From Eubacteriales Family XIII. Incertae Sedis bacterium (GTDB taxonomy: Bacteria; Bacillota; Clostridia; Peptostreptococcales; Anaerovoracaceae): a stretch of 40,592 bases of DNA. How positions within the stretch are numbered: the stretch's first letter is position 1; every line of letters starts with the position of its first letter. The stretch spans positions 1 through 40,592 of the forward strand of contig JAIRPE010000040.1 of the NCBI GenBank assembly GCA_031257175.1, written 5' to 3'. Below the pieces are notes generated by a model. That model saw only the letters and a program-made list of their open reading frames with translations, was not told the DNA's origin and made no database searches. The translations under genes and the position numbers were made by a program. Positions 2,398 to 19,391 of this stretch are shown piece by piece.

Positions 2398-2976
2398 TCA
2401 ACCCGCCAAAAAAACCGCGTCGAAAGCCCGACGGGCGGACTCGTAGATGTCGTAGGAGCCGTTTTTGGACGCCCAATCTATGATTACACCTATCAGGGCA
2501 GTGTTGAAAAGCCAGACCATCGTCTCGCCGTCCGCGTTCCTGTTCAACTCCCCGCTTTCCTGGGCCAGCTTCGCGTACTCTATGTTCATCTTGAATACCA
2601 TGGACAAGTCGCCGCCTGTGCCGCTTATGTCGGGCGCGAAGGTTTTCAGGCCGTTTTTGCTGTCCGTGACGAACAGCGCCCTTAACAAATCCGCGCCCAG
2701 CCACTCAGAGGCGTCTATGTAGAACTCCGACAGGCGCCATATCCTCTCTCTGTAACTGTCCAGCCTCATTATTTCAGGCATTATGTTCAACACGTTGGAT
2801 GATTTCGCGTCGTAGTACTCCAAGATAAGATCGTCTTTCGAGGCGTAATGATAGTAGAATGATTTTTTCGTTATGCCGCAAGCGTCGCATATCATGTTGA
2901 TCGACGTGTTCTCATAGCCCCAGAGCTTGAACAGCTCTATGGAATTTTCCAATATCTGTTGCTTTGTGTTCTCCAA
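2398..2976 (-). CDS. TetR/AcrR family transcriptional regulator
   Basis: MENTKQQILENSIELFKLWGYENTSINMICDACGITKKSFYYHYASKDDLILEYY: canonical TetR HTH. Confidence 0.88.
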   Translation of the reverse strand: MENTKQQILENSIELFKLWGYENTSINMICDACGITKKSFYYHYASKDDLILEYYDAKSSNVLNIMPEIMRLDSYRERIWRLSEFYIDASEWLGADLLRALFVTDSKNGLKTFAPDISGTGGDLSMVFKMNIEYAKLAQESGELNRNADGETMVWLFNTALIGVIIDWASKNGSYDIYESARRAFDAVFLAG

Positions 2977-3069: not shown

Positions 3070-3087
3070 GTAAACTGCGGTATACAT
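3070..3087. repeat. Direct repeat copy 1 (GTAAACTGCGGTATACAT), operator candidate
   Basis: 16/18 identical to 3215-3232. Lies just upstream of a TATAAT (minus strand, 3057-3052) facing tetR. Confidence 0.5.
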
Positions 3088-3214
3088 TTCTCGGTACTGG
3101 GTGCGCCTTAGTCACGTCGGCGCTCCGCGGCCTCTAGCCCCAATACCGCGCCGCGATAGTTTAAGTATAGCATTTGTGGAACGTTTGTCAAGAGGATTAC
3201 AGATAATCATTTTG

Positions 3215-3232
3215 ATAAACCGCGGTATACAT
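3215..3232. repeat. Direct repeat copy 2 (ATAAACCGCGGTATACAT), operator candidate
   Basis: 16/18 identical to 3070-3087. Lies upstream of the 2-hydroxyacid dehydrogenase gene. Confidence 0.5.
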
Positions 3233-3327: not shown

Positions 3328-4329
3328 ATGCTTAACCTTTTGAAGCCTTTTGGTTCCGTGAGCAAGTTGGAGAAATTGTTGGAAGGACTGCCCGTGGAGG
3401 TGGTGGGAGTGAGCGCCACGCCACCGCCGCAAGGCGAGCTGGACGATAAGCTCGCCCGTTGCGACGTGCTGGTGGCGGACGTGGACATATCCGTGGACAG
3501 GGCGTTGGTGGCGCGGGCCCCAAGGCTGAAAGCTGTCCTATGCATGAGCATAGGCGTGGATTATGTTGACCAGGAGGCGTTGGACGAGCGGGGCATCCTG
3601 CTGGCGAACGACCGTGATTTCTGCGTCACTGCCGTGTCCGAGTTCACCATGGGGCTCATCTACGCCCTTTTGCGCCGCATACCTGCGGGGGTGGAGGCGC
3701 TGAAGGCCAAACGCTGGGGCACCAGGAGCGCGCTCGGCGGCGTTGAACTTCAGGGGCGCGTTCTGGGGCTGGTGGCTTTCGGCCACATCGGGCGGGACGT
3801 GGCCAGACAGGCTATAGGCATAGGCATGAAGGTAGTCGCCTACAGCCCCAACATCGACAAGGAGGTGGCGCGGAGGATGGGCGTGGAGCCGGTGTCCTTT
3901 GAGGAATTGCTCAGAACTGCCGACATCGTGAGCCTGCACATGCCCCTGAACGCGGCCACCCAAGCCATGATAGGAGCGAGGGAGCTGGGCATGATGAAGT
4001 GCGGCTCTTATCTGATAAACGTGGCGCGAGGCGGCGTGGTGGACGAGGCGGCGCTGCTGGACGCCATAAAGAGCGGCAAACTGGCAGGCGCGGCGCTGGA
4101 CGTGCTGGAAAACGAGCCGCCCAAGCCAGGCGACCCGCTGTCGGCGCTCATGGGCGGGGAGAACGTGATAATAACCCCCCACATCGCCTGGCACTCGCAC
4201 GACGCGTCCCAGAAAGCGCTGACCCGCATTCGGGAACAGGTGGAGTCCCTGTTGCGCGGTGAGACGCCAAAAGATTGTTTAAACGCCAATAAGGGGAGAC
4301 CCTTTGATATTAAGACGGTATCAGATTGA
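3328..4329 (+). CDS. D-isomer-specific 2-hydroxyacid dehydrogenase
   Basis: GRVLGLVAFGHIGRDVARQAIGIGMKVVAYSP (Rossmann) and LINVARGGVVDEAALLDAI. SD ATAGGAGAA upstream. Confidence 0.9.
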   Translation: MLNLLKPFGSVSKLEKLLEGLPVEVVGVSATPPPQGELDDKLARCDVLVADVDISVDRALVARAPRLKAVLCMSIGVDYVDQEALDERGILLANDRDFCVTAVSEFTMGLIYALLRRIPAGVEALKAKRWGTRSALGGVELQGRVLGLVAFGHIGRDVARQAIGIGMKVVAYSPNIDKEVARRMGVEPVSFEELLRTADIVSLHMPLNAATQAMIGARELGMMKCGSYLINVARGGVVDEAALLDAIKSGKLAGAALDVLENEPPKPGDPLSALMGGENVIITPHIAWHSHDASQKALTRIREQVESLLRGETPKDCLNANKGRPFDIKTVSD

Positions 4330-4562: not shown

Positions 4563-6023
4563 ATGACGATTCTTGTTGTTTTAGGGATTTATTTGATTGT
4601 CATGCTGGGCGTGGGGCTTTATTTCAAAGGCAATATCTCGACGCCCGAGGACTATTACGTGGCAGGCAGGACACTCCCCTGGTGGGTGGTCATGCTGACC
4701 ATGTCCGCCACCTACATCGGCGCCACGGCGACCCTGGCAAAAACAGGCCTGGGGTACAACAACGGTTACTCCTCCATGATGACCACCATAGCGGCGATGA
4801 TCGGCATGGCTATTTTCGGCCTGCTGTCGCCCAAGGTGAGCCGTATCGGCACCAAGTACAAGATTCTGTCCGTCTCGGGCCTAATAAACTTCAGGTTCGG
4901 GAAAGCCGCCTGCGTCATCTCGGCCTTCGTGGTGGCCTGGGCGCTCATAGGCACTCTGGCCGGCCAAGTGGTAGGCGCGGGGAGCCTGTTGCCTGTGGTT
5001 TTCAAAAACGTCGGCCTGACCGTCTCCTATGAGCTGACCATCTTCATCCTGGTGCTGGTCATGATAGGCTACACGTTGCTTTCGGGCATGTTCGGCGTGG
5101 CCTACACGGATGTCATACAGGTGACGATACTCCTTATAGGTCTGGGCATCATCCTGCCTGCGGTGATGATAAGTTACGCGGGAGGCTGGGGCGCCATAAC
5201 GGCCAGCCTGCCCGAGGGCTATCTGAGCTTCAAGCCCGGCATGTACATCATCGGGCTTATGTTCTCCTACTTCATGTATTTCATGTCGGGGCCGCCCTAT
5301 TGGCAGAGGGCCTTCGCCGCCAAGACGGGCGGCGGCTCGCGGGTGGCCATAGTCGCCGCCTCCGTCCTCATCATCGTCTACTCGTTCATGGTGACCATGG
5401 TCGGCATGACGGCCAAGAGCATGTACCCCGAGCTGCCCGAAAGCATAACCAGCGCCGACTCCATCATCATCTACGCGTTGCTGCAGCACTTCCATCCCAT
5501 ACTGGTGGCTATCGTGGTCGTGGCCATAATGGCGGCCATCATGTCCACCATGGACAGCTACCTCCTGACCGCCGCCCAAGCGATTTTGACGGACATCTTC
5601 AGGCGGTTCAAGGACATCTCGGAAAAACAGGAGCTGTTTTACGCGAAAGTTCTGGTCGCCGCCATAGCTATCCTGAGCTTCGTCTTTGCCTTGTTCGTGC
5701 GAGACATACTCAAAGCCCTGCAACTGGCCATGGGGTTCTATTCTGCCACTATGGCGGCCCCGCTCATCGCCGCGGTGTTCTGGAAGAGCGCCACGAAGCC
5801 TGCCTGCTTCGCCTCCATGTTCGGCGGTTGCGCCACTTACCTGTTGTGGAATTACGCTTTGGGGAAACCCTGGGGCATGGACTCAGCCATACCTGGCGGC
5901 ATAGTGAGCATACTGCTCATGGTGGTGGTGTCCCTCTGCACGGCTAAGGCTTATCCTTCGCCGTATTTCGAGGGCGTGGACGCCAAAGGCGTCCCCCAGG
6001 ACGAGGCTCCGATAACGGCCTGA
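4563..6023 (+). CDS. Sodium:solute symporter (SSS) family transporter
   Basis: 486 aa polytopic protein. N-terminal YFKGNISTPEDYYVAGRTLPWWVVMLTMSATYIGA is typical of SSS. SD AGAAAGGAG. Confidence 0.9.
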   Translation: MTILVVLGIYLIVMLGVGLYFKGNISTPEDYYVAGRTLPWWVVMLTMSATYIGATATLAKTGLGYNNGYSSMMTTIAAMIGMAIFGLLSPKVSRIGTKYKILSVSGLINFRFGKAACVISAFVVAWALIGTLAGQVVGAGSLLPVVFKNVGLTVSYELTIFILVLVMIGYTLLSGMFGVAYTDVIQVTILLIGLGIILPAVMISYAGGWGAITASLPEGYLSFKPGMYIIGLMFSYFMYFMSGPPYWQRAFAAKTGGGSRVAIVAASVLIIVYSFMVTMVGMTAKSMYPELPESITSADSIIIYALLQHFHPILVAIVVVAIMAAIMSTMDSYLLTAAQAILTDIFRRFKDISEKQELFYAKVLVAAIAILSFVFALFVRDILKALQLAMGFYSATMAAPLIAAVFWKSATKPACFASMFGGCATYLLWNYALGKPWGMDSAIPGGIVSILLMVVVSLCTAKAYPSPYFEGVDAKGVPQDEAPITA

Positions 6024-6047: not shown

Positions 6048-6500
6048 ATGACCTACTACATATCGACGTTTCGCTATAAGATAGCCTTCCTGTGCTGGGC
6101 GGGGGCAGTCATGACCGTAGCCAACGGCTTTCTAAACCAGATTCCCTTGACGGAGCTACTGGGCAGGTACGGCGTATCGGTGGCTGTCATGGCTCTGGCA
6201 GGCTGTCTGCTGTGGCGCCCCGCCTTCAAGTACGCAGGTGACTCCGCCGACAAGGTCTGGGGTATGTGGGGTGACGTGGCTCGAAGCAAACCCCGCGCGG
6301 ATTTTGAGGGCATCCGGTTCGAGAGGTTTTACAAAAACACGAAATACGGGCTTCTGAGAGACCCTGCGGGATACAGGGTGGGGACTACCTTAGCCTCCTG
6401 CACATGCAGAGATTTTCGGGAGAGGCGCGTCCCTTGCGCCCATATGTACAAATTGGCTGATTTGCTGGGTGTGTACGACGAATGGGACGACGGCGCTTAG
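6048..6500 (+). CDS. Small membrane protein with C-terminal SWIM-type zinc finger
   Basis: Two predicted hydrophobic helices, then SCTCRDFRERRVPCAHMYKLADLLG (CxC...CxH, SWIM signature). Confidence 0.65.
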   Translation: MTYYISTFRYKIAFLCWAGAVMTVANGFLNQIPLTELLGRYGVSVAVMALAGCLLWRPAFKYAGDSADKVWGMWGDVARSKPRADFEGIRFERFYKNTKYGLLRDPAGYRVGTTLASCTCRDFRERRVPCAHMYKLADLLGVYDEWDDGA

Positions 6501-6697: not shown

Positions 6698-7657
6698 ATG
6701 AAGTACATAGTTGCGGCTTGCCAGCCGAATATCGCCCAAGGCGACAAAGCCGCTAATTTGAAGAAGGCGCTGGCCATGATTGACGAGGCCGTGGAGCAGG
6801 GCGCGAAGGTGACAGTTTTCCCCGAGTATTTCCTGACCTGGCCACCCACTTCCGCCATGACGAAGGCGGACATCGACGACATGGCCGAGACCATACCCGG
6901 CCCGTCCACGGACGCCATAGCCAAGAAATGCGTCGAAACGGGCACCTACTGCGTGTGCGGCACTATTATCGAAAAATGCGATGACGGCAAGCTGCGCAAC
7001 ACCAGCGCCATCATCGGGCCTGACGGCAAGATCATAGGCAAGTATCACAAAGCGCAGCCCGAGAACGCCCCCGCGAAGTTCGAGCCCGGCAGCGGCATAT
7101 GGCCTGGCAACGAGCTGCCTGTGTTCGAGACGCCCCTGGGCCGCTGGGCCATCATGGTGGACATGGATTTCTCGAACCTGGAGATACCCAGGGTGTATGG
7201 CCTTAAGGGCGCCGACGTAATTTTTGCCCCCGTGTGCTGGAGCGCGAAGTTCGTGCCCGTCATCGAGACCCTGGCCAGGGCCTCGGGGCTGCAGAGCCAC
7301 GCCTACATAGTGGCGTCCAACCCCGTGGGCTGGAGGAAGAGCATCCCCGTCCACGCCTGGGCTTTCGCGGCCCAGTCTCAGGAATCCGCCAACAGCGTGG
7401 ATCTGTCCTACGGCGGCGGCTCCTGCATAGCCCTTGGCAACAATCTGATAGGCAAGGCATGTAATTTCGCCGAAGGTATAGCCTACGCAGTGGTTGACAG
7501 CGCCACACCGTCGGCGGGCAGAGCTAACGATGCCAGCATTTACCCGTTCTGGAGAAGGCCGGATCTGTATTCTGAAATCGTCAAGCCCGAGACCGCCCAA
7601 CCTTGGGGGACTAGCGTGAAGCACGACGTACCCACCCACATCGAACCGAAAAAGTAA
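6698..7657 (+). CDS. Carbon-nitrogen hydrolase (nitrilase superfamily)-like protein, catalytic Cys replaced by Asp
   Basis: VFPEYF (Glu), GKYHKAQPEN (Lys); the Cys region reads LGRWAIMVDMDFSNLEIPR. Start MKYIVAACQPN with SD AAGGAGG. Confidence 0.82.
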   Translation: MKYIVAACQPNIAQGDKAANLKKALAMIDEAVEQGAKVTVFPEYFLTWPPTSAMTKADIDDMAETIPGPSTDAIAKKCVETGTYCVCGTIIEKCDDGKLRNTSAIIGPDGKIIGKYHKAQPENAPAKFEPGSGIWPGNELPVFETPLGRWAIMVDMDFSNLEIPRVYGLKGADVIFAPVCWSAKFVPVIETLARASGLQSHAYIVASNPVGWRKSIPVHAWAFAAQSQESANSVDLSYGGGSCIALGNNLIGKACNFAEGIAYAVVDSATPSAGRANDASIYPFWRRPDLYSEIVKPETAQPWGTSVKHDVPTHIEPKK

Positions 7658-7675
7658 GTGAGACCTGTGGCTGAA

Positions 7676-7727
7676 AAAGGCTTCCAAAACCGTCGCCGCG
7701 GATTTGGCGGAGGTTTTGGGGGCCTTT
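7676..7727 (+). other. Intercistronic stem-loop ahead of the PreA-like gene
   Basis: AAAGGCTTCCAAAACC (7676-7691) and GGTTTTGGGGGCCTTT (7712-7727): 14 Watson-Crick plus 2 G.U pairs as RNA, followed by GAAGGAGG. Confidence 0.6.
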
Positions 7728-7740
7728 GAAGGAGGAGACT

Positions 7741-8898
7741 ATGTTAGCGGTTGATTTTGCGGGGTTGAAGCTAAAGAACCCCGTCATCGTGGCCTCGGCC
7801 ACCCCATCCATACACGCGGACGCCATAAAGCGGGCGGCGGCCAACGGCGCGGGAGCCGTTGTGACCAAGTCCGTCATATTCGCGGACGCCAACGGCAAGC
7901 CGGCGGGAAACAACGCCAAGCCCAGATTCCAGCTGTACAACACGCCCAACGGGTACGACCCGCGGCTGACGGAAAAAGGCGGCATGTTTTCTTTCTTCCG
8001 TTTTCAGGAGCCTTACCCCACGCCTGAGAAAATGGCCCACATCCTGGACGACGTGAAGAAGGGAGGCGTGGACATTCCCGTCATCGTGAGCATATGCGGC
8101 TTCACCGACGACTACGATTCCTGGCGTAAGCTGGCCCGCCTCATGGAAGACGCGGGCGCCGACGCGCTGGAGCTGAACGGCCACATGTGGAGCCCCGTGG
8201 TGAAGTACAGCGACCCCGCCATAGCCACGGTGGTGAAACGTGAAGTGAAGATACCCGTTATATACAAGATGATGGGGGCCACGGAGGAACCCGCCAAGGT
8301 GGCGCCCCAGTTGGTCGCCGCAGGGGCCGACGCCCTCACGGGCCTTGGGACTTTCGGGTTCCGCGCGCTGGAGGTGGACGTGGAGAACGAGAAGCCTTGG
8401 ATGGAGATGGCGCACGGGCTTGGCGGCACCTGGCTTCGCGCCGTGAGCCTGGCCTTCGTCTCGTCCATGGCCCAAGCCGTGGACGTGCCCATATCGGGCG
8501 TGACGGGCATACAGTCCTGGGAGGACGCGGTGAAATACATCCTGCTGGGCGCCACTACGGTACAGGTCTGCGCGGCCATATATGCCCGAGGTTACAAGGT
8601 TCTCCAAGAGATAAACGACGGCATGGAGGCTTACATGAAGCGGAAAGGCTACGGCTCCATCGAGGATTTCAGGGGCAAGGCGCTGGCGAAAATAGCGAAA
8701 TCCAGGCCCAACGACCTGCCAATCCGCGCCGTGGTCAATGAAAAATGCACGGGTTGCGGCATGTGCAAGGATTCCTGCATGTTCGACGCGATACGCTTCG
8801 AGAACAGGAAGACATCCATCACCGAGGCCTGCGACGGTTGCGGCGTATGCTGGTCTCTTTGCAATTTCCGCGCTATAGAGATGAGGAGTTTCGCTTAG
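7741..8898 (+). CDS. PreA/dihydroorotate dehydrogenase-like flavoprotein with C-terminal 2x[4Fe-4S] ferredoxin domain
   Basis: MLAVDFAGLKLKNPVIVASATPS (DHOD/PreA N-terminus), VTGIQSWEDAVKYILLGATTVQVCAAIY, CTGCGMCKDSC and CDGCGVCWSLC. SD AGGAGGAG. Confidence 0.85.
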   Translation: MLAVDFAGLKLKNPVIVASATPSIHADAIKRAAANGAGAVVTKSVIFADANGKPAGNNAKPRFQLYNTPNGYDPRLTEKGGMFSFFRFQEPYPTPEKMAHILDDVKKGGVDIPVIVSICGFTDDYDSWRKLARLMEDAGADALELNGHMWSPVVKYSDPAIATVVKREVKIPVIYKMMGATEEPAKVAPQLVAAGADALTGLGTFGFRALEVDVENEKPWMEMAHGLGGTWLRAVSLAFVSSMAQAVDVPISGVTGIQSWEDAVKYILLGATTVQVCAAIYARGYKVLQEINDGMEAYMKRKGYGSIEDFRGKALAKIAKSRPNDLPIRAVVNEKCTGCGMCKDSCMFDAIRFENRKTSITEACDGCGVCWSLCNFRAIEMRSFA

Positions 8899-8926
8899 GC
8901 GCCGCAAGGCGCGATGGAGGCGTGAA

Positions 8927-9319
8927 ATGGATAAGTATGTTTTGAGGTTTGAGAGGGGCGGGGTTTTTGAGGTGCGTTTCCTGGAAGACGCCGCTCCCGC
9001 CACGGTCGCCGCTTTCAAGGCCGCCCTGCCCCTGTCGGGAGGGTGCCTGCAGGCTAGATTCGCGGGGGACGAGTTCTTTTTCAGCGCCCCCTCCATTGAA
9101 GTGGCGGAAGAGAACGCCGTGGCGCCCTACCATGGCGCCATAGCCTTTAACAGCGACCCGCAATGGCGGGCGGTGTGCGTGTATTACGGCTCTACCATCA
9201 AAGGGACGTATTACAGCCTTTTCGCAGAAATCAAGGAAAACCTTGATGAGCTTCGGGAGGTGGGCATGAGAGTGTGGAAGAGGGGCGAGGAAAAAGTATT
9301 TTTTGAAAAGATTCAGTAA
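8927..9319 (+). CDS. DUF3830-like (cyclophilin-like fold) protein
   Basis: LRFERGGVFEVRFLEDAAPATVAAFKAALPLSG...GDEFFFSAPS resembles the DUF3830 pattern. By-eye assignment only. Confidence 0.55.
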   Translation: MDKYVLRFERGGVFEVRFLEDAAPATVAAFKAALPLSGGCLQARFAGDEFFFSAPSIEVAEENAVAPYHGAIAFNSDPQWRAVCVYYGSTIKGTYYSLFAEIKENLDELREVGMRVWKRGEEKVFFEKIQ

Positions 9320-9640: not shown

Positions 9641-10816
9641 ATGAAAGATTTCATTTTCAAAATGCCTACGCGAGTGATTTTCGGCATAGGCAAGGCCAAC
9701 GACATAGGCGCCATCTGCGCGGAGCAGGGTTATAAGAACGTGTTCGTGCTGACCGGTCCCCATATCGGCAAGTCCGAGCTGCTCGTCAGGGTCAAGTCCT
9801 CCATCGAGGGGGCGGGAATAGCCTGCGACTATTACGATAAAACCGCCTCCGACCCCACCGTGGAACTGACGGACGAGGTGGCGGGCGTCGTCAAGGCGGC
9901 GGGCGCGGACGCGGTGGTAGCCTTAGGCGGCGGCAGCCCCATCGATCTGGCCAAGGCGGTCTGTATGCTGCAGACCAACGAAGGCTCCGTGAGGGACTAT
10001 TTGTTCGGCGGCACGAAAACCGTCACGAACGCCCCCATACCCCTCATAGCCATCCCCACCACGGCGGGCACGGGCAGCGAGGTGACGGCCGCTTCCGTCA
10101 TAACTGACACCAGCAAGAACATAAAGCTGTCCGTCACCCATGAGTCCCTCATCCCGAAAATCGCGCTGATAGACCCCTCATTGCATTTGGGGATGCCCCA
10201 GCTTATCACCGCGTCAACGGGCATGGACGCCCTAACCCACGCCATCGAGTGCTATGTCTCCCTGAACGCCGAGCCCTTCAGCGACGCCTACGCCCTCTAC
10301 GCCATGCGCCTGATAGGCGAGAACCTGCGTGTGGCTGTGGCGGACGGGTCTAACCTGGCGGCCAGGACTAATATGGCTCTGGCCAGCACCATAGCCGGCT
10401 GCGCCTTCCTCAACGGCGGGCTGGGCGTAGTCCACGGCATAGCCCAGGCCATGGGCGGCCTGCACGGCACGCCCCACGGCATAGCCAACGGCCTGATACT
10501 GCCTTACGCCATGGAGCGCAATTTCGTGGGCAATCTGGCGAAATTCAGGGATATCGCCGTGGCGCTGGGCAAAAACGTGGAGGGCTTGAGCCTGAGGGAA
10601 GCCGCCTATGAGGCCGTGGAGGCCGTCTTCGATCTGGTAGAGGACATTCACGTCCCCTCGAGCTTGAAGGATTTGGACATCGGCCCCGAAGATTTCCCGC
10701 CCATAGTGGAGGGAACCATGAATTTCAGACTGCTGGCCATCAATCCCTGCAAGCTGTCGGCAGGGGACGTGGAAAAGATTCTGCTCAGGGCGCGCGAGGG
10801 AAGATACGCCCTGTGA
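9641..10816 (+). CDS. Iron-containing alcohol dehydrogenase
   Basis: GGGSPIDLAKAV, PTTAGTGSEVT, NGGLGVVHGIAQAMGGLHGTPHGIANG metal-binding region. Confidence 0.92.
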   Translation: MKDFIFKMPTRVIFGIGKANDIGAICAEQGYKNVFVLTGPHIGKSELLVRVKSSIEGAGIACDYYDKTASDPTVELTDEVAGVVKAAGADAVVALGGGSPIDLAKAVCMLQTNEGSVRDYLFGGTKTVTNAPIPLIAIPTTAGTGSEVTAASVITDTSKNIKLSVTHESLIPKIALIDPSLHLGMPQLITASTGMDALTHAIECYVSLNAEPFSDAYALYAMRLIGENLRVAVADGSNLAARTNMALASTIAGCAFLNGGLGVVHGIAQAMGGLHGTPHGIANGLILPYAMERNFVGNLAKFRDIAVALGKNVEGLSLREAAYEAVEAVFDLVEDIHVPSSLKDLDIGPEDFPPIVEGTMNFRLLAINPCKLSAGDVEKILLRAREGRYAL

Positions 10817-10950: not shown

Positions 10951-12099
10951 GTGGATAAAATGGAATTCAGCTACTCAGAAACCCAGCAAATGCTAAAAAA
11001 AATGCTTAAGGACTTCTCTGAGAAGGAGATAGCCCCCTACTGCGAGGAATGGGACGAGAACGCGGTTTACCCCGCTGAATCCATCTCCAAGCTTGCCGAT
11101 CTGGGCCTGATGGGGATGCCCTTCCCTTCGGAGTACGGCGGCGCGGGGCTGGACTACGTGACCTACGTCATGGCTATAGAGGAGCTTTCCAAAGTCAGCG
11201 GTTCCCACGGCGTGATAGTCCAGACTCACAACGCGCTCTGTTGCTGGCCGATTTTCACCTACGGCACGGAAGAGCAGAAACGCAAATACCTCCCCAAGCT
11301 TCTTTCGGGGAAACACCTGGGCGCCTTCGGCCTGACCGAGCCTAGCGCGGGAACGGACGCGGCCATGCAGAAAACCAGGGCCGAGGACAACGGCGACCAT
11401 TGGTTGCTAAACGGCACGAAGATTTTCATATCGGGCGGCGACATCGCGGACGTGCTGGTCATAATGGCTATGACGGACAAGAGCCAGGGCGTCAAAGGGA
11501 TAAGCTCCTTCATACTGGAAAAAGGGATGCCTGGCTTCAGGGTGGGCAAAAAAGAGAACAAGATGGGCATACGCGCCTCTCATGCCGCTGAGCTGATATT
11601 CGACAATTGCCGGATTCCCAAGGAGAACCTGCTGGGTGAGGTCGGCAAGGGTTTCAAGGTGGCCATGACGTCCCTGGACGTGGGCAGGCTGGGCATAGCG
11701 GCCCAGGCGCTGGGGATAGCCCAGGGCGCCTTCGACCAGACGGTGGCCTACATGAAGCAACGCGAGCAGTTCGGCCGTACCCTGGACAAGTTCCAAGCGC
11801 TGGCCTTCGAGATGGCATCCATGAAAGCGCGAATCGACGGCGCCCGCTTCCTGCTTTACCACGCGGCCTGGCGCAAGGAGCAAGGGCTGCCCTTCACCGC
11901 CGAGGCGGCGGCAGCGAAGCTGACATGCTCCGAGACCGCCATGTACGTGACCACCAAAGCCGTCCAGTTCCATGGAGGCTACGGCTACATCAAGGATTTC
12001 CCCGTCGAGCGCATGATGAGGGACGCGAAGATAACTGAGATATACGAGGGCACCTCCGAGGTGATGAAGATGGTCATGGCAGGCGAGATATTCAAGTGA
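10951..12099 (+). CDS. Acyl-CoA dehydrogenase
   Basis: FGLTEPSAGTDA, ISGG, IYEGTSEVMKMVM. Start is GTG 10951 or, with better SD spacing, ATG 10960. Confidence 0.94.
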   Translation: MDKMEFSYSETQQMLKKMLKDFSEKEIAPYCEEWDENAVYPAESISKLADLGLMGMPFPSEYGGAGLDYVTYVMAIEELSKVSGSHGVIVQTHNALCCWPIFTYGTEEQKRKYLPKLLSGKHLGAFGLTEPSAGTDAAMQKTRAEDNGDHWLLNGTKIFISGGDIADVLVIMAMTDKSQGVKGISSFILEKGMPGFRVGKKENKMGIRASHAAELIFDNCRIPKENLLGEVGKGFKVAMTSLDVGRLGIAAQALGIAQGAFDQTVAYMKQREQFGRTLDKFQALAFEMASMKARIDGARFLLYHAAWRKEQGLPFTAEAAAAKLTCSETAMYVTTKAVQFHGGYGYIKDFPVERMMRDAKITEIYEGTSEVMKMVMAGEIFK

Positions 12100-12140: not shown

Positions 12141-13349
12141 ATGAAACAATGCGTAATAACAGGGGCGGCCCGCACGGCCGTCGGAGCCTATCTGGGCAGC
12201 CTGAAGACAGTGGAGGCGCAAGACCTCTGCGCCGCCGTGATTAAAGCCGCCGCTGATCGATCGGGCATCGGGCTTGAAAGCCTAGACCAGGTCGTCATGG
12301 GCGACGTGTACGGCTACACGCCCAACGTGGCCAGGTGCGCCGCGCTGATAGCGGGCGTGCCCATCGAGACTCCCGCCTACGAGGTGGATCGGCAGTGCGC
12401 CAGCTCATTGCAGGCCGTCGTCAGCGCCTGTCACGAGATAAACGCCGATGAGGCGGAGGTGATCATGGCGGGCGGCGTGGAGGTCATGTCCAGGCTCACC
12501 TATTATCTGGATCCCTCCACGCGCTACTCGCCCATGCGGCTGGGAGACAAGCCCCTGTACGACACTTTCACCCACGGCGTCACCATGGTGCAACCGCCTT
12601 CCCTCTACCCCGGGCTGAACATGGGGCTGACCGCCGAGAACGTGGCGGAGCAGTACGGCATAAGCAGGGATGAGCAGGACTCCTTCGCCTACGACAGTCA
12701 AATGAAGATGAAGGCGGCCAAGGAGGCGGGGAAATTCAAGGACGAGATAGTCCCCTTCCAGGTCGTGGACAGGAAGAAATCCTTCATCTTCGACACGGAC
12801 GAGCACAACACTCCCGACACCACCTTGGAGTCGTTGGCGAAGCTGAGACCGGTGTTCAAGAAGGACGGGACGGTCACTGCGGGGAATTCTTCAGGCATGA
12901 ACGACGGAGCCTCCGCGGTGGTGGTCATGTCCGAGGACAAGGCCAAGGCGGCCGGAGCCAAACCTCTGGTTAGGGTGGTCTCCATGAGCAGCACGGGTTG
13001 CGATCCAAGGATAATGGGCATAGGGCCCGTGTCGGCCATAAACAAGGCATTGGCGAAGGCGGGGCTGAAAAAGGAGGACATAGGGCTTTATGAGCTGAAC
13101 GAAGCTTTTGCGGCTCAGAGCCTGGGTTGCCTGAAGGCACTGGGCATGGGCCCCGGCACGGAGCTTTACGAACGGGTCAACGTGAACGGCGGCGCTATCG
13201 CCCATGGCCACGCCCTGGCCAGCAGCGGCACCAGGCTGCTGACCACCCTGATATACGAGATGAAGCGGCGAGACGTCAGATATGGGCTGGCGTCCCTGTG
13301 CATAGGCGGCGGGCAGGGCATGGCCCTCATAGTGGAGAACGCGCGGTAG
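12141..13349 (+). CDS. Acetyl-CoA acetyltransferase (thiolase)
   Basis: VDRQCASSLQAV, NVNGGAIAHGHALASSGTR, SLCIGGGQGMA. ATG at 12141 after GGAAC. Confidence 0.94.
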   Translation: MKQCVITGAARTAVGAYLGSLKTVEAQDLCAAVIKAAADRSGIGLESLDQVVMGDVYGYTPNVARCAALIAGVPIETPAYEVDRQCASSLQAVVSACHEINADEAEVIMAGGVEVMSRLTYYLDPSTRYSPMRLGDKPLYDTFTHGVTMVQPPSLYPGLNMGLTAENVAEQYGISRDEQDSFAYDSQMKMKAAKEAGKFKDEIVPFQVVDRKKSFIFDTDEHNTPDTTLESLAKLRPVFKKDGTVTAGNSSGMNDGASAVVVMSEDKAKAAGAKPLVRVVSMSSTGCDPRIMGIGPVSAINKALAKAGLKKEDIGLYELNEAFAAQSLGCLKALGMGPGTELYERVNVNGGAIAHGHALASSGTRLLTTLIYEMKRRDVRYGLASLCIGGGQGMALIVENAR

Positions 13350-13365: not shown

Positions 13366-14220
13366 ATGCTATTGAAGAAGGTCGGCGTGGTCGGCGCGGG
13401 GATGATGGGCGCAGAAATCGCCTTGTGTTTCGCGCGAGCGGGTATGGACACGGTCTTGAGCGACGTGAGCATGGACTTCGTCCGGAAAGGCATGAAACGC
13501 CAGGAAGAAATATTAGATAAATCAGTAAAAAAAGGTAGAATAACCCTCGAGGACAAAGAGGCGGCCTTGGGCCGCGTCACGGGAACCGCCGACATGACAG
13601 TCATGTCGGACAGGGATCTGGTCATCGAAGCCGTGTCAGAGGTGTTTGAGGTGAAGGCCCAGGTGTTCGGCCGTCTGGACGAGGTCTGCGGGCCTGACAC
13701 GATTTTTGCCAGCAACACCTCCAGCATATCTATAACGAAGCTGGCCTCGTCGGCGTCGCCGGTCAGGCGCAAGCGCTTCCTGGGGACTCACTTCAACTCC
13801 CCCGCCAGCGTGATGAAGCTGGTGGAGGTCATCCCCGCCCTGCTCACGGAGGAAGAAGCCGTCCGTGACGTGACCCGCGCACTGGAGGAAATCGGCAAAG
13901 AGCCTGTCCGCGTGAAGGACGTGGTGGGCTTCGGGCTTAACAGGCTCTTCCACGTGTTCTACCTGGAGGCCTGCCGTCTGGTGGAGGAGGGCGTCTGCTC
14001 CGTGGAGGACGTAGACAAGATATGTATTCACGGCCTGGGGCATCCCATGGGCATTTTCAGGCTGCTGGACATCACTGGGCACGACCTGAACCTAAAGGTG
14101 GACGAAATCATGTTCGACGCCTACGGCGAACGTTACCGCCCCAGTCCGCACATAAGGAAGCTGGTGGATTCGGGGATGCTGGGCAGAAAGACAGGCGCGG
14201 GGTTTTATGAATATGAATGA
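13366..14220 (+). CDS. 3-hydroxyacyl-CoA dehydrogenase
   Basis: KVGVVGAGMMGAEIALCFARAGMDTVLSD, ASNTSSISIT, FLGTHFNSPASVMKLVEV. Confidence 0.94.
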   Translation: MLLKKVGVVGAGMMGAEIALCFARAGMDTVLSDVSMDFVRKGMKRQEEILDKSVKKGRITLEDKEAALGRVTGTADMTVMSDRDLVIEAVSEVFEVKAQVFGRLDEVCGPDTIFASNTSSISITKLASSASPVRRKRFLGTHFNSPASVMKLVEVIPALLTEEEAVRDVTRALEEIGKEPVRVKDVVGFGLNRLFHVFYLEACRLVEEGVCSVEDVDKICIHGLGHPMGIFRLLDITGHDLNLKVDEIMFDAYGERYRPSPHIRKLVDSGMLGRKTGAGFYEYE

Positions 14221-15436
14221 GCGGAGCGTGACGTCAAAAGAATTGTTGAAAAAACTGACCGCACTGCATTACGAAGGCGCGGCCAAGGCGAAGGCCGAGG
14301 GACGCCCCGTAGTATGGGCCACGTCGATCAGCCCCCAGGAGCTGCTGGAGACCATGGATTTGGCCACGGTGTACCCGGAGAACCACGCCGCGGCCATCGG
14401 CGCCCGCAAGGAGGCGCTTGTTTTCATCGACGAGGCGGAGCGCGACGGCTATTCCCAGGACATATGCTCCTACGCGCGGGTGAATATCGGCTACGCGGGC
14501 GTAGGTAAATCGGAGGCCCAGGACATACCTCTGCCTGACCTCCTGTTCTGTTGCGGCAACATATGCGGCACGGTGATAAAGTGGTACGAGAACCTGGCCA
14601 AAGAGCTGCGCGTCCCCATGATATTCATCGACATGCCTTTCAACCATTCCTTCCACGTCCCAGCCCACAGCAGGGCGTACATGCGCGGGCAAATAGAGGA
14701 TGCCATAGAGCAGTTGGAAGCATTCACGAAAAGGCGCTTTGACAGGGACAAATTCAGCGAGGTCATGAGGCTTTCCAACGCTACCTGCGAGTGGTGGAAA
14801 AAAGCCACGGATTTGGCGAAGGCTAAGCCGTCGCCCCTGAACGGCTTCGATATGTTCAACTACATGGCCATCATCGTGTGCATGAGGGGGAGCAAAGAGG
14901 GCTACGAGCTGTTCAAGCTTTGGCACGACGAGCTGGCGGCTAAGGCGGCAGCGGGCATGGGCCCCTGGAGCTCCGCAGAGGAGAAATACCGCGTGATGTG
15001 GGACGGCATCGCCTGCTGGCCCCACCTCTCCACCACCTTCAACGCGCTGAAAAAGCACGGCATAAACATGGTCACATCCAGCTATCCCGAATCCTGGAAC
15101 CTGCGCTACGAGACTAATGATCTGGAGGGGATGGCGGCGGCGTACTCGTCCATATATGCCAACCGCAACCTGGACTACGACATCGGTTACATGAAGAAAT
15201 TGGTTGACGAGTTTCGGCTGGACGGCATAGTGTACCATTCAAACAGAAGCTGCAAATTGATGGATTTCCGCCAATACGAAGTACAGCGGCGCGTAGGCGA
15301 GCTGACGGGCGTCCCCTCGGTGATATTCGACGGGGATCAGACCGATCCCAGGAGCTTTTCGGAGGCGCAATACGAGACCAGGATACAGGCGCTGGCGGAG
15401 ATGATGGAGCGCGGCAAAGGAGGGATGGGCCTATGA
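14207..15436 (+). CDS. 2-hydroxyacyl-CoA dehydratase subunit (HgdA/BcrC-like)
   Basis: YPENHAAAIGARKEA...GYSQDICSYARVNIG, LLFCCGNICGTVIKWYE. Overlaps the upstream gene by 14 bp. Confidence 0.88.
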   Translation: MNMNERSVTSKELLKKLTALHYEGAAKAKAEGRPVVWATSISPQELLETMDLATVYPENHAAAIGARKEALVFIDEAERDGYSQDICSYARVNIGYAGVGKSEAQDIPLPDLLFCCGNICGTVIKWYENLAKELRVPMIFIDMPFNHSFHVPAHSRAYMRGQIEDAIEQLEAFTKRRFDRDKFSEVMRLSNATCEWWKKATDLAKAKPSPLNGFDMFNYMAIIVCMRGSKEGYELFKLWHDELAAKAAAGMGPWSSAEEKYRVMWDGIACWPHLSTTFNALKKHGINMVTSSYPESWNLRYETNDLEGMAAAYSSIYANRNLDYDIGYMKKLVDEFRLDGIVYHSNRSCKLMDFRQYEVQRRVGELTGVPSVIFDGDQTDPRSFSEAQYETRIQALAEMMERGKGGMGL

Positions 15437-16623
15437 GCTACAGAGAGACCGTGACAAAGCTTAGAGAGAGGGCCTTAGACCCGGCCAAAAGCGCGGCGGC
15501 TCTGACGCGTGAGACGGGAAAGCCCCTGATAGGCTGTTTCCCCGTGTACGCGCCTGAGGAAATCATCTACGCGGCGGGGGCGTTGCCAGTGGGCATGTGG
15601 GGGGGCAAGACGGAGTTGAAGCTGGCAGACCGCTATCTCCAAAGCTTCTGTTGCTCAGTCATGCGCGCCAATCTGGAGCTGGGACTTAAAGGAAGTTACG
15701 GCGCCCTGCGGGGCGTGGTCATCCCCACCTTCTGCGACAGCCTCAAATGCGTGTGCGAGAATTGGAAAACAGCCGTGCCGCAGCTCCCCGCCCTGCCGAT
15801 AGTCTATCCCCAGAACCGCTCTGCGGCAGGGACATTATACATGAAAGACGAGCTGGCCCGCTTCAAGGGGGAAGCGGAAAAACTTTTGCGCGTCAATATC
15901 AGTGAGGAAGCCCTGATGGCGGCTTGGGAGACCTACGAGGATTGCAGGGCCGCTCAGCGCGGCTTCGTGGCCGCCGTCGCCCGGCACGCGGGCGCCATAG
16001 ACGCGGAAACCCGCCACCTCATTCTGAAGGCGGCTTATTTCAGCGACAGAGCCGAATACGCCCGTCTTTTGCGCGTGATAACCGAGGGTCTGGCCAGCGA
16101 GGCTGAGGACAGCACAGAAGCCTCGCCAGGAATCAGGCGGCGGGCCTACGGCATTAAAGCCGTTCTGACCGGATACATGTCCGAACCTGCGGAAATACTG
16201 AGGATATTGGACGAGAACGGCGTGGCTGTCGTCGGCGACGACCTTGCCCACGCCTCCAGACAGTTCCGCGTCGCGGGTCGGCGTGAGGGTTGCTTCTGGG
16301 AGCTAATGGCGGGCAGGATGGCCGACCAAAGCGGCTGCGCGTTCCTGTACGACCCGAATAAAAGCCGCGGGCGCAATCTGTTGCATATGGTAAGAGAGGC
16401 GGACGCGGATGCGGTCATAGTGTTCATGATGAAATTCTGCGACCCTGAGGAATTCGACTACCCCATATACAGGAAGGAATTGGAGGCCGCCGGCGTACCC
16501 GTCCTCTGCCTGGAGGTAGACCAGCAGACCGACTCCTTCGAGCAAATCAGGACGAGGGTGCAAAGCTTCGCGGAGACTCTGGGGACGGCGCCCCTCGGAG
16601 TGCGCGCGGGAGGCAAGGCTTGA
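15433..16623 (+). CDS. 2-hydroxyacyl-CoA dehydratase subunit (HgdB/BcrB-like)
   Basis: GKPLIGCFPVYAPEEIIYAAGALPVGMWGG, VVIPTFCDSLKCVCENWK. ATGA overlap with the upstream gene. Confidence 0.88.
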   Translation: MSYRETVTKLRERALDPAKSAAALTRETGKPLIGCFPVYAPEEIIYAAGALPVGMWGGKTELKLADRYLQSFCCSVMRANLELGLKGSYGALRGVVIPTFCDSLKCVCENWKTAVPQLPALPIVYPQNRSAAGTLYMKDELARFKGEAEKLLRVNISEEALMAAWETYEDCRAAQRGFVAAVARHAGAIDAETRHLILKAAYFSDRAEYARLLRVITEGLASEAEDSTEASPGIRRRAYGIKAVLTGYMSEPAEILRILDENGVAVVGDDLAHASRQFRVAGRREGCFWELMAGRMADQSGCAFLYDPNKSRGRNLLHMVREADADAVIVFMMKFCDPEEFDYPIYRKELEAAGVPVLCLEVDQQTDSFEQIRTRVQSFAETLGTAPLGVRAGGKA

Positions 16624-16735: not shown

Positions 16736-17515
16736 ATGTTCGCAGGGATAGACATAGGCTCGTCCTCTTCAAAAGCGGCCATTATCGGCGACGACGGCAG
16801 GTTGCTGTCCGTATCCGTCCATAATCAGGGCGCGGGCACCGACGGCCACAGGCAAGCGCTGGAGCGGGCCTTGGCACTGGCCGGGGCCGAAAGAAGCGAC
16901 ATCCGCTTCTTGGTCGCCACAGGATACGGACGTATGCGTTACGAGGGGGCCGACAGGCAGTTGACGGAAATCAGTTGCCACGCCAAGGGCGTCGCCTGGC
17001 TCACCTCAGGCGCCCGAACCATAATAGACGTGGGAGGGCAAGATTCGAAGGCCATCAAACTGGACGCGGCGGGGAACGTGGCCAATTTCGCTATGAACGA
17101 GAAATGCGCCGCAGGAACGGGCCGTTTTTTAGAAGTGATGGCGCGGGTTCTGGACTGTCGAGTTGACGAGCTTTCCGAGATAGCCGCCGCCTCCGTCAAA
17201 GAAGTCCCCATCAGCAGCGTCTGCGCCGTTTTCGCAGAGAGCGAGGTGATATCCCGCCTTTCCTCGGGGGAACGCCCCGAGGACGTGGCCAGGGGCGCCC
17301 ACGTGTCCATAGCCAGGCGCATAGCCGGGCTTGCGGGCAGGATAGGCTGCCAGCCCGAAATAGTCATGACAGGCGGCGTGGCTCTCAACGGGGACGCGGT
17401 GGCCTGCCTGTCCAAGGAACTGGGGCACGAAGTGCTGGTGGCGCCCCACGCCCAGGCGATAGGAGCCGTAGGCGCCGCCGCCTTCGCTTGGGAAATGGCG
17501 CGAGCTGCAAAATAA
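16736..17515 (+). CDS. 2-hydroxyacyl-CoA dehydratase activator ATPase (BadF/BcrA/HgdC family)
   Basis: MFAGIDIGSSSSKAAIIGDDG, IDVGGQDSKAIKL, NEKCAAGTGRFLEVMA, SSVCAVFAESEVI (cluster Cys residues), MTGGVALN. Confidence 0.94.
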   Translation: MFAGIDIGSSSSKAAIIGDDGRLLSVSVHNQGAGTDGHRQALERALALAGAERSDIRFLVATGYGRMRYEGADRQLTEISCHAKGVAWLTSGARTIIDVGGQDSKAIKLDAAGNVANFAMNEKCAAGTGRFLEVMARVLDCRVDELSEIAAASVKEVPISSVCAVFAESEVISRLSSGERPEDVARGAHVSIARRIAGLAGRIGCQPEIVMTGGVALNGDAVACLSKELGHEVLVAPHAQAIGAVGAAAFAWEMARAAK

Positions 17516-17593: not shown

Positions 17594-18031
17594 ATGGACG
17601 TTTTGATGGGAAAAGAAAAAATCAAGAAAATAATACCGCACAGGGAGCCTATGCTCCTTGTTGACGAAGTGTTGGAAATGACGGCGGGAGAGCGCATAAG
17701 GACACGCCTTAGCCTGAAGCCTGATATGATGTTCTTCAAGGGGCATTTCCCCGATGCTCCCGTGCTGCCAGGCGTCCTGACTGTAGAGGCCATGGCGCAG
17801 ACGGCTGACATACTGCTGCTCTCCATGGAGTGCTACGCGGGGCTGACGCCGCTGTTCATAGGTATTGACAAGGTTTCCTTCAAGAAAAAGCTGGAGCCTG
17901 GCGACGTGCCGGAGATCACCGCCTACGTGATACGGATTAACGAACCAAAGGCCGTGGTCACCTGCGGCGCGGAGGTGTTTTGCGACGGGGGGATCGTTGC
18001 CACAGGGGAAGTCACCCTGGCCATGAGATAA
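17594..18031 (+). CDS. FabZ-like hotdog 3-hydroxyacyl dehydratase
   Basis: IIPHREPMLLVDEVLEM...FFKGHFPDAPVLPGVLTVEAMAQTA, with catalytic His and Glu preserved. Confidence 0.88.
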   Translation: MDVLMGKEKIKKIIPHREPMLLVDEVLEMTAGERIRTRLSLKPDMMFFKGHFPDAPVLPGVLTVEAMAQTADILLLSMECYAGLTPLFIGIDKVSFKKKLEPGDVPEITAYVIRINEPKAVVTCGAEVFCDGGIVATGEVTLAMR

Positions 18032-18068: not shown

Positions 18069-19391
18069 ATGAATACCAACTGGAAAGACCTTTACGATCA
18101 GCGCCTCGTCACCGCTCAGGAGGCGCTGAGACACATCAAGTCGGGAGACAGCATCATAACCTCCCACGCGGCGGCCGAGCCTCAGTACCTGATAGAACAG
18201 CTGTTGCTCAGGAAGGACGAGCTAGAGAACGTCCAAATCATAAACGGGCTGAACATAGGGAAGGCGCGTTACGCCGAGCCGTCCTATCGGGGCCACTTCG
18301 TGAACGTGAGCTTCTTCCTGGGAAAAAACAACAGGGCCTGCATACAGGAGGGGCGTGGCGAGTTCCTGCCTATACATTTTTATGCCCAGCCCCGCGCCAT
18401 ACGCGAGGGCAACATCCCCTGCGACGTGGCGCTGATACAATGCGCCCCGCCTGACGTCAGCGGTTACGTGAACATGGGCGTGTCCTGCGACCAGACCAGG
18501 CTGATAGCCGAGAAGGCGCGGCTCACGGTCGCGCAGGTGAACGCTAAAATGCCGCGCCTGTGCGGGGACACCCTGATCCACGTGTCGGAAATAGATTATT
18601 TCGTCGAATACGACGAAGACATCTACGAGTTGCCGCAAATCAACGGCGACGACCCCATAGCCGAGAAGATCGGCCAAAACATCTCCACGCTGATAGACGA
18701 CGGCGCCACTCTGCAAATGGGCCAGGGCACCATACCCAATGCCATACTGAAGTGCCTGGGGGACAAAAAAGACCTAGGCGTCCATACCGAGGTTTTCTCC
18801 GACAACCTGTTGCCCCTCATAGAGGCGGGCATCATCAACGGACGCAGAAAAACCCTGAACAAGGGGAAAATCGTGGCCACCTTCGTGCAGGGCACACGGG
18901 CCTTCTACGATTTCGTGGACAACAACAACATGATCCAGCTGATGCCGGTGGACTACACCAACGACGTGGGCGTAATAGCGCGAAACGACAACATGGTGGC
19001 CATCAACTCCGCGCTGGAGGTGGATTTGATGGGGCAGGTGGTGGCCGACTCCATAGGGAGCAAGACCTTCAGCGGGGTGGGCGGCCAGCTGGACTTCCTG
19101 CGCGGGGCGGAGCAATCGAAAAACGGCAAACCCGTTATAGCTTTGCCCTCCACGGCGAAAAACGGCAAAGTATCCAGGATATGCGCAGCGCTGAAGCCCG
19201 GCACCCCCGTGACCACCACCAGACAGGATGTCCATTACGTGGTGACCGAATACGGCGTGGCGCAGCTTTTTGGGAAAACCATAAGTCAAAGAGCTGAGGC
19301 GCTGGTGGGCATAGCCCATCCTGATTTCCGCGAGGAGCTGCGGAGGGAGTTCCGTGAGTACTGCGAGGGCGCGGGGCGAATCTGGTTTTAG
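18069..19391 (+). CDS. Acetyl-CoA hydrolase/CoA-transferase family protein
   Basis: LQMGQGTIPNAILKCLGDKKDLGVHTEVFSDNLLPLIEAGIINGRRK; GVGGQLDFLRGAEQSKNGKPVIALPSTA; YVVTEYGVAQLFGKTISQRAEALVGIAHPDFREEL. Confidence 0.93.
   Translation: MNTNWKDLYDQRLVTAQEALRHIKSGDSIITSHAAAEPQYLIEQLLLRKDELENVQIINGLNIGKARYAEPSYRGHFVNVSFFLGKNNRACIQEGRGEFLPIHFYAQPRAIREGNIPCDVALIQCAPPDVSGYVNMGVSCDQTRLIAEKARLTVAQVNAKMPRLCGDTLIHVSEIDYFVEYDEDIYELPQINGDDPIAEKIGQNISTLIDDGATLQMGQGTIPNAILKCLGDKKDLGVHTEVFSDNLLPLIEAGIINGRRKTLNKGKIVATFVQGTRAFYDFVDNNNMIQLMPVDYTNDVGVIARNDNMVAINSALEVDLMGQVVADSIGSKTFSGVGGQLDFLRGAEQSKNGKPVIALPSTAKNGKVSRICAALKPGTPVTTTRQDVHYVVTEYGVAQLFGKTISQRAEALVGIAHPDFREELRREFREYCEGAGRIWF

Follow-up and report, generated by a model that had tools for sequence, protein, structure and literature searches.

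A putative catabolic operon of anaerobic bacteria encoding a nitrilase-fold protein with aspartate in place of the catalytic cysteine, a PreA-like flavoprotein and a DUF3830 protein

Introduction

The stretch of DNA analysed here (henceforth the window; 40,592 nucleotides) comes from an assembly of an Eubacteriales Family XIII. Incertae Sedis bacterium, whose genome is represented by 138 contigs (2.04 Mb, 88% complete). At positions 6698-9319 it contains three adjacent genes that at first sight recall pyrimidine catabolism, and they raise the question of what such a set could do if its members are not the conventional enzymes. The original prediction proposed that the first two genes, nitrilase-like and PreA-like, had each lost their hallmark cysteine, and that together with the third, DUF3830-like, they encode a dedicated complex acting on a non-pyrimidine substrate, with the product passed to a CoA-ester module downstream. 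The gene calls and coordinates of this trio were confirmed, and family matches as well as alignments agree with the identity of all three products.

Gene content of the locus

The trio is tightly spaced, with 83 bases between the nitrilase and PreA-like genes and 28 bases between the PreA-like and DUF3830 genes, and each gene is preceded by a Shine-Dalgarno-like stretch. Upstream, on the same (forward) strand, lie genes for a D-2-hydroxyacid dehydrogenase (3328..4329; PF02826/PF00389), an SSS-family Na+/solute symporter (4563..6023; PF00474) and a small SWIM-domain protein (6048..6500; PF04434). The importer predicted to precede the trio is therefore present, but the SWIM-domain gene intervenes. 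A TetR-type regulator (2398..2976, reverse strand; PF00440) is divergent from the operon, and between it and the dehydrogenase gene we found two direct copies of the 17-base sequence TAAACYGCGGTATACAT (3071-3087 and 3216-3232, i.e. 3071..3232; 16/17 identical, spacing 145), a candidate operator for the TetR protein.

Downstream, again on the forward strand, follows an iron-containing alcohol dehydrogenase (Fe-ADH, 9641..10816; PF00465). The gap of 321 bases that separates it from the DUF3830 gene makes a single transcript across this junction only putative. The next genes encode an acyl-CoA dehydrogenase (10951..12099), nearest to the acryloyl-CoA reductase AcrC yet below the cut-off (NF042972, 524 of 640 bits), a thiolase (12141..13349; PF00108/PF02803), a 3-hydroxyacyl-CoA dehydrogenase (13366..14220; PF02737/PF00725), the HadB-like (14207..15436; PF06050; NF052455, 515 of 750 bits) and HadC-like (15433..16623; by family and profile matches) subunits of a 2-hydroxyacyl-CoA dehydratase, its activase (16736..17515; TIGR00241, 261.6 bits, above cut-off) and a CoA-transferase (18069..19391; PF13336/PF02550), all on the forward strand. 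The window thus has the two HGD-D subunits and the activase that mark a 2-hydroxyacyl-CoA dehydratase module. In the interval between the activase and CoA-transferase genes there is also a 145-aa ORF (17594-18031) that by eye resembles a FabZ-type dehydratase. Rfam gave no matches.

The nitrilase-fold protein

The first protein of the trio (6698..7657, forward strand) has a clear CN-hydrolase domain (PF00795, E=5.4e-36). Its hallmark cysteine is indeed gone, but this is not a simple loss: alignments to solved structures and a 25-sequence alignment place Asp155 of the motif VDMD (codon GAC) opposite the catalytic Cys of ICYD. Aspartate occupies this position in all four module nitrilases and cysteine in all 21 comparators, while Glu43 and Lys118, the counterparts of the catalytic Glu and Lys, are invariant in the four module members, giving Glu43-Lys118-Asp155 in place of Glu-Lys-Cys. 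By eye the cysteine had first seemed to be replaced by methionine, a view that was abandoned, as the alignments to solved structures and 21 nitrilases put Asp155 there. The protein shares its family match and the active-site Glu and Lys with the nitrilase-superfamily amidases (NIT2, formamidase, N-carbamoylputrescine amidase, beta-ureidopropionase), from which its group differs by the invariant Asp at the site of the nucleophilic Cys. The structure model (pLDDT 53.1) is too poor for active-site geometry, and its fold matches carry little weight.

The nitrilase and PreA-like genes are under strong purifying selection, with dN/dS of 0.08-0.15 and 0.07-0.11, respectively (only pairs with unsaturated dS were used); since these values are low, the genes are not decaying. 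The nitrilase subfamily is scarce. Among 394 genomes of the order, the host alone has a match at E<=1e-60 (the sister genome G024, discussed below, is not among the matches there), and when 399 genomes of the phylum were searched, the highest score of any non-host match was 125.9 bits, compared to about 660. Searches of plasmids found nitrilase and PreA homologues that were distant only (about <=32% identity among the matches listed), and the viral contigs searched had no matches. Among the titles and abstracts listed by a literature search on nitrilases that lack the catalytic Cys, none addressed the point.

The PreA-like protein

The second protein (7741..8898, forward strand; PF01180, E=8e-25) consists of a DHODH domain and a C-terminal 4Fe-4S dicluster, whose two [4Fe-4S] motifs comprise eight cysteines that are invariant in our alignment (A1). 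This architecture, a DHODH-like flavin domain followed by a two-[4Fe-4S] motif, is that of E. coli PreA and the C-terminal half of DPD. Nonetheless, the window protein is only about 28% identical to E. coli PreA, its best NCBIfam match (PreA, 184.6 bits) falls far below the equivalog cut-off of 335 bits, and in the tree it belongs to a clade of its own (support 100/100), apart from both canonical PreA and another Cys-less clade. The NLSC segment of DPD, an instance of the NxSC motif with the active-site Cys, aligns with NGHM in the window protein. The predicted absence of the cysteine therefore stands for the window, which has Met, and the position is Ala in G024, the second host cluster C43, G028 and Emergencia timonensis; but it is not a common trait, because the digester MAG L040 retains Cys (NMHCW), so that its loss does not define the group. 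The L041 and G028 proteins are identical and were counted once. The clade was found in 4 of 351 family genomes.

Another clade of PreA-like proteins without the NxSC Cys (L007/L037 8934-10049, L010, L011, L013, L014) is represented in G078 near genes that by eye resemble a cytosine/purine permease and a deaminase.

The DUF3830 protein

The third protein (8927..9319, forward strand; 130 aa) matches PF12903 with 45.9 bits (cut-off 26), and its model (pLDDT 92.8) has a cyclophilin-like fold. Foldseek matched it to 3kop, then to KslB and McbB, and then to TM1367; compared to the Pictet-Spenglerases KslB and McbB, the TM-score over the query is 0.72-0.87, as expected of a cyclophilin-like domain. 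The fold is thus that of the DUF3830/TM1367-like proteins and of the cyclophilin-like domain of KslB/McbB, from which the window protein differs in being stand-alone, without the helical domain: it matches DUF3830/Cyclophil_like only, and not the helical bundle (Cucumopine_C) of Pictet-Spenglerases. A genome search with PF18631 matched nowhere at all and is hence uninformative. Glu62-Asn63 is invariant in nine sequences, and Glu62 is also aligned in 3kop, TM1367 and KslB. The passages of PMC12513458 on McbB and KslB give their reactions, and do not state the catalytic residue.

By PF12903, DUF3830 at first appeared rare (2 of 147 order genomes), a view overturned by our profile A3, which detects it in 40 of 351 family genomes; because of this wide occurrence DUF3830 alone is not specific for the module. 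Among eight of the 40 loci that were inspected, one (G019) belongs to the module and one (G023) has a distant DUF3830 gene beside those for a dihydropyrimidinase and a carbamoylase-type amidase, and the remaining six had no matches to module proteins beyond DUF3830 itself and general ABC ATPases. In the plasmid search neither the window DUF3830 nor the helical partner described below had a match, and a second DUF3830 gave one weak match. A full-text literature search for DUF3830 found no paper in the library searched.

Recurrence and regulation of the cluster

The trio also occurs in G024 and L040, so its genes do co-occur elsewhere, as the original prediction required. Four loci, spread over three genomes (the window and C43 in the host, G000; G024; L040), encode both the nitrilase and the PreA-like protein; DUF3830 is present at three of the four, and the symporter and the dehydrogenase accompany the pair at all four, in three gene orders. 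The window has dehydrogenase, symporter, SWIM, nitrilase, PreA, DUF3830; G024 keeps this order, with Fe-ADH, a sigma54 activator, HGD-D and CoA-transferase ahead of it; C43 has dehydrogenase, symporter, SWIM, PreA, nitrilase, activator, without DUF3830; L040 has nitrilase, dehydrogenase, PreA, symporter, DUF3830. C43 (L034 8396-13755) is a paralogous second copy (nitrilase 70-71%, PreA 77% identical) and adjoins eutABC and a BMC gene.

DUF3830 lies beside or near the PreA-like gene in the window, G024, L040, E. timonensis, G028 and G019, where the contig begins inside the apparent C-terminus of a PreA-like protein directly followed by a 61% identical DUF3830. The clusters of E. timonensis and G028 combine PreA and DUF3830 with an importer that by sequence is of the ABC type, an M20 peptidase, extra DUF3830 genes and a helical partner; these two genomes lack the Asp-type nitrilase and have distant nitrilases only. 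Downstream of the E. timonensis cluster (L042 18790-19908) is encoded an AlaDh_PNT_N-domain protein, possibly opine-dehydrogenase-like.

The trio is therefore a recurring association but not an obligatory one, since C43 has PreA and nitrilase without DUF3830, and PreA is paired with DUF3830 in E. timonensis, G028 and G019; because E. timonensis and G028 have no Asp-type nitrilase, a fixed three-protein complex is unlikely to be the general unit. What is conserved extends beyond the three genes: it includes the D-2-hydroxyacid dehydrogenase (homologues at 45-63% in the other module loci) and the Na+/solute symporter (74% in G024, 53% in C43, 44% in L040), and often Fe-ADH (71% in G024, 56% in the E. 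timonensis cluster, 44% in G028) and a PAS/sigma54 activator (61-64% among G024, C43 and E. timonensis, 41% in L040). The SWIM-domain protein, a zinc-finger match, has homologues in C43 and G024 (48-50%) and none at E<=1 in L040, L036, L041 or L042. The cluster is rare, yet it recurs among anaerobic bacteria. A literature search found no paper in which three of the combined terms of the module occur.

The link to the CoA-ester module was also seen in G024, whose cluster encodes homologues of the HadB-like HGD-D subunit (71%) and the CoA-transferase (70%). As the regions retrieved around C43, L040, E. timonensis and G028 showed neither of the two, this link comes from two related genomes.

Exact matches to the -24/-12 pattern TGGCACG-N4-TTGC are found closely upstream of the dehydrogenase gene in G024 (L078 7560, with the dehydrogenase gene beginning near 7626) and C43 (L034 13922, minus strand, with the dehydrogenase gene beginning at 13755). 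Because shuffled sequences yield no fewer -24/-12-like matches per locus, it is their exactness and position that speak for these sites. The window has the divergent TetR gene and the 17-base repeat pair instead of the sigma54-type arrangement.

Proposed pathway and alternative chemistries

Gene content, active-site residues, recurrence and purifying selection were observed directly. To explain them, we propose a dedicated catabolic operon that would take up a nitrogenous compound, convert it to a 2-oxo acid and feed this into 2-hydroxyacyl-CoA fermentation, a reading to which we give about even chances. The symporter would import an organic acid or amide that contains nitrogen and is probably cyclic, and the PreA-like flavoprotein would add electrons to it or take them from it. 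The DUF3830 protein, with its invariant Glu62, and the Asp-type nitrilase might then open or cleave the compound and set free a 2-oxo acid, which the D-2-hydroxyacid dehydrogenase would reduce to an (R)-2-hydroxyacid. The CoA-transferase, the 2-hydroxyacyl-CoA dehydratase with its activase and the acyl-CoA dehydrogenase would turn this into an acyl-CoA for fermentation, and Fe-ADH may take care of an aldehyde or hydroxyacid by-product. Substrate, individual steps and their order are all conjectural. The second half of the scheme fits the joint presence of the dehydrogenase, the HadBC-like dehydratase, the activase, the CoA-transferase and the AcrC-like enzyme, families whose roles in converting 2-oxo acids to acyl-CoA in fermentation are established. 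The same components make up the known HadBC-type fermentation (of the lactyl-CoA to propionyl-CoA kind), from which the window differs in the unusual trio alongside and in the scores of its dehydratase and acyl-CoA dehydrogenase, which stay under the equivalog cut-offs. That the trio produces the 2-oxo acid is what we infer.

More tentative, and perhaps rather to be doubted, is the proposal that the nitrilases form an active Glu-Lys-Asp family that works with the PreA-like and DUF3830 enzymes in a new anaerobic catabolism of nitrogen compounds. It is similarly possible, although not what we would expect, that the Asp-type nitrilase assists the PreA-like protein as a non-catalytic partner or as a subunit that binds a ligand: the nucleophile is gone, and E. 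timonensis and G028 keep the PreA-like protein without it. However, the invariance of Asp155, Glu43 and Lys118 in all four members and the low dN/dS would rather be expected of an enzyme, even if they could be reconciled with a binding role.

A specific form of the operon explanation, and an unlikely one, is the breakdown of an opine-like or tetrahydro-carboline-like condensation product that a 2-oxo acid forms with an amine or amino acid, and from which DUF3830 would release the 2-oxo acid by a cleavage of the retro-Pictet-Spengler type. The modelled similarity to KslB and McbB (TM up to 0.87) is suggestive of it, as is the A3 profile, which matches KslB with E=0.0024 and aligns the invariant Glu62 with KslB chain position 245. 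In E. timonensis and G028, moreover, the extra DUF3830 genes are followed by that of a helical protein that matches Cucumopine_C below the threshold. However, this match reaches 23.6 bits against a cut-off of 27, KslB is not recovered when the PDB is searched with a profile of the helical partner, no partner of this kind lies beside DUF3830 in the window, and cyclophilin folds serve many functions.

An equally improbable scenario is a variant of reductive cyclic-ureide (pyrimidine or hydantoin) degradation, where the PreA-like protein would reduce the ring, DUF3830 would take part in ring chemistry and the nitrilase would act on the opened N-carbamoyl product. Counterparts of all three genes are found in or near such pathways, and in G023 the distant DUF3830 adjoins a dihydropyrimidinase (508 bits, over the cut-off) and a hydantoinase/carbamoylase-type amidase. 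On the other hand, the module loci that were retrieved showed no dihydropyrimidinase, and the host has none above the cut-off; Asp replaces the catalytic Cys of the ureidopropionase-type enzyme; the PreA-like clade is far from true PreA in the tree; and pyrimidine breakdown is not known to yield an obvious 2-oxo acid. Conventional uracil degradation by this cluster is unlikely, as originally predicted, since the host genome, which is 88% complete, yielded neither canonical PreA nor a hydantoinase above the cut-off.

Conclusions

If the proposed roles are true, a pathway role would be assigned to DUF3830, the nitrilase active site would be able to hold a carboxylate instead of a thiol, and the module would point to fermentation of a nitrogen compound by rare anaerobes. 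Emergencia timonensis is one of these, and as a named strain it makes part of the module accessible in culture.
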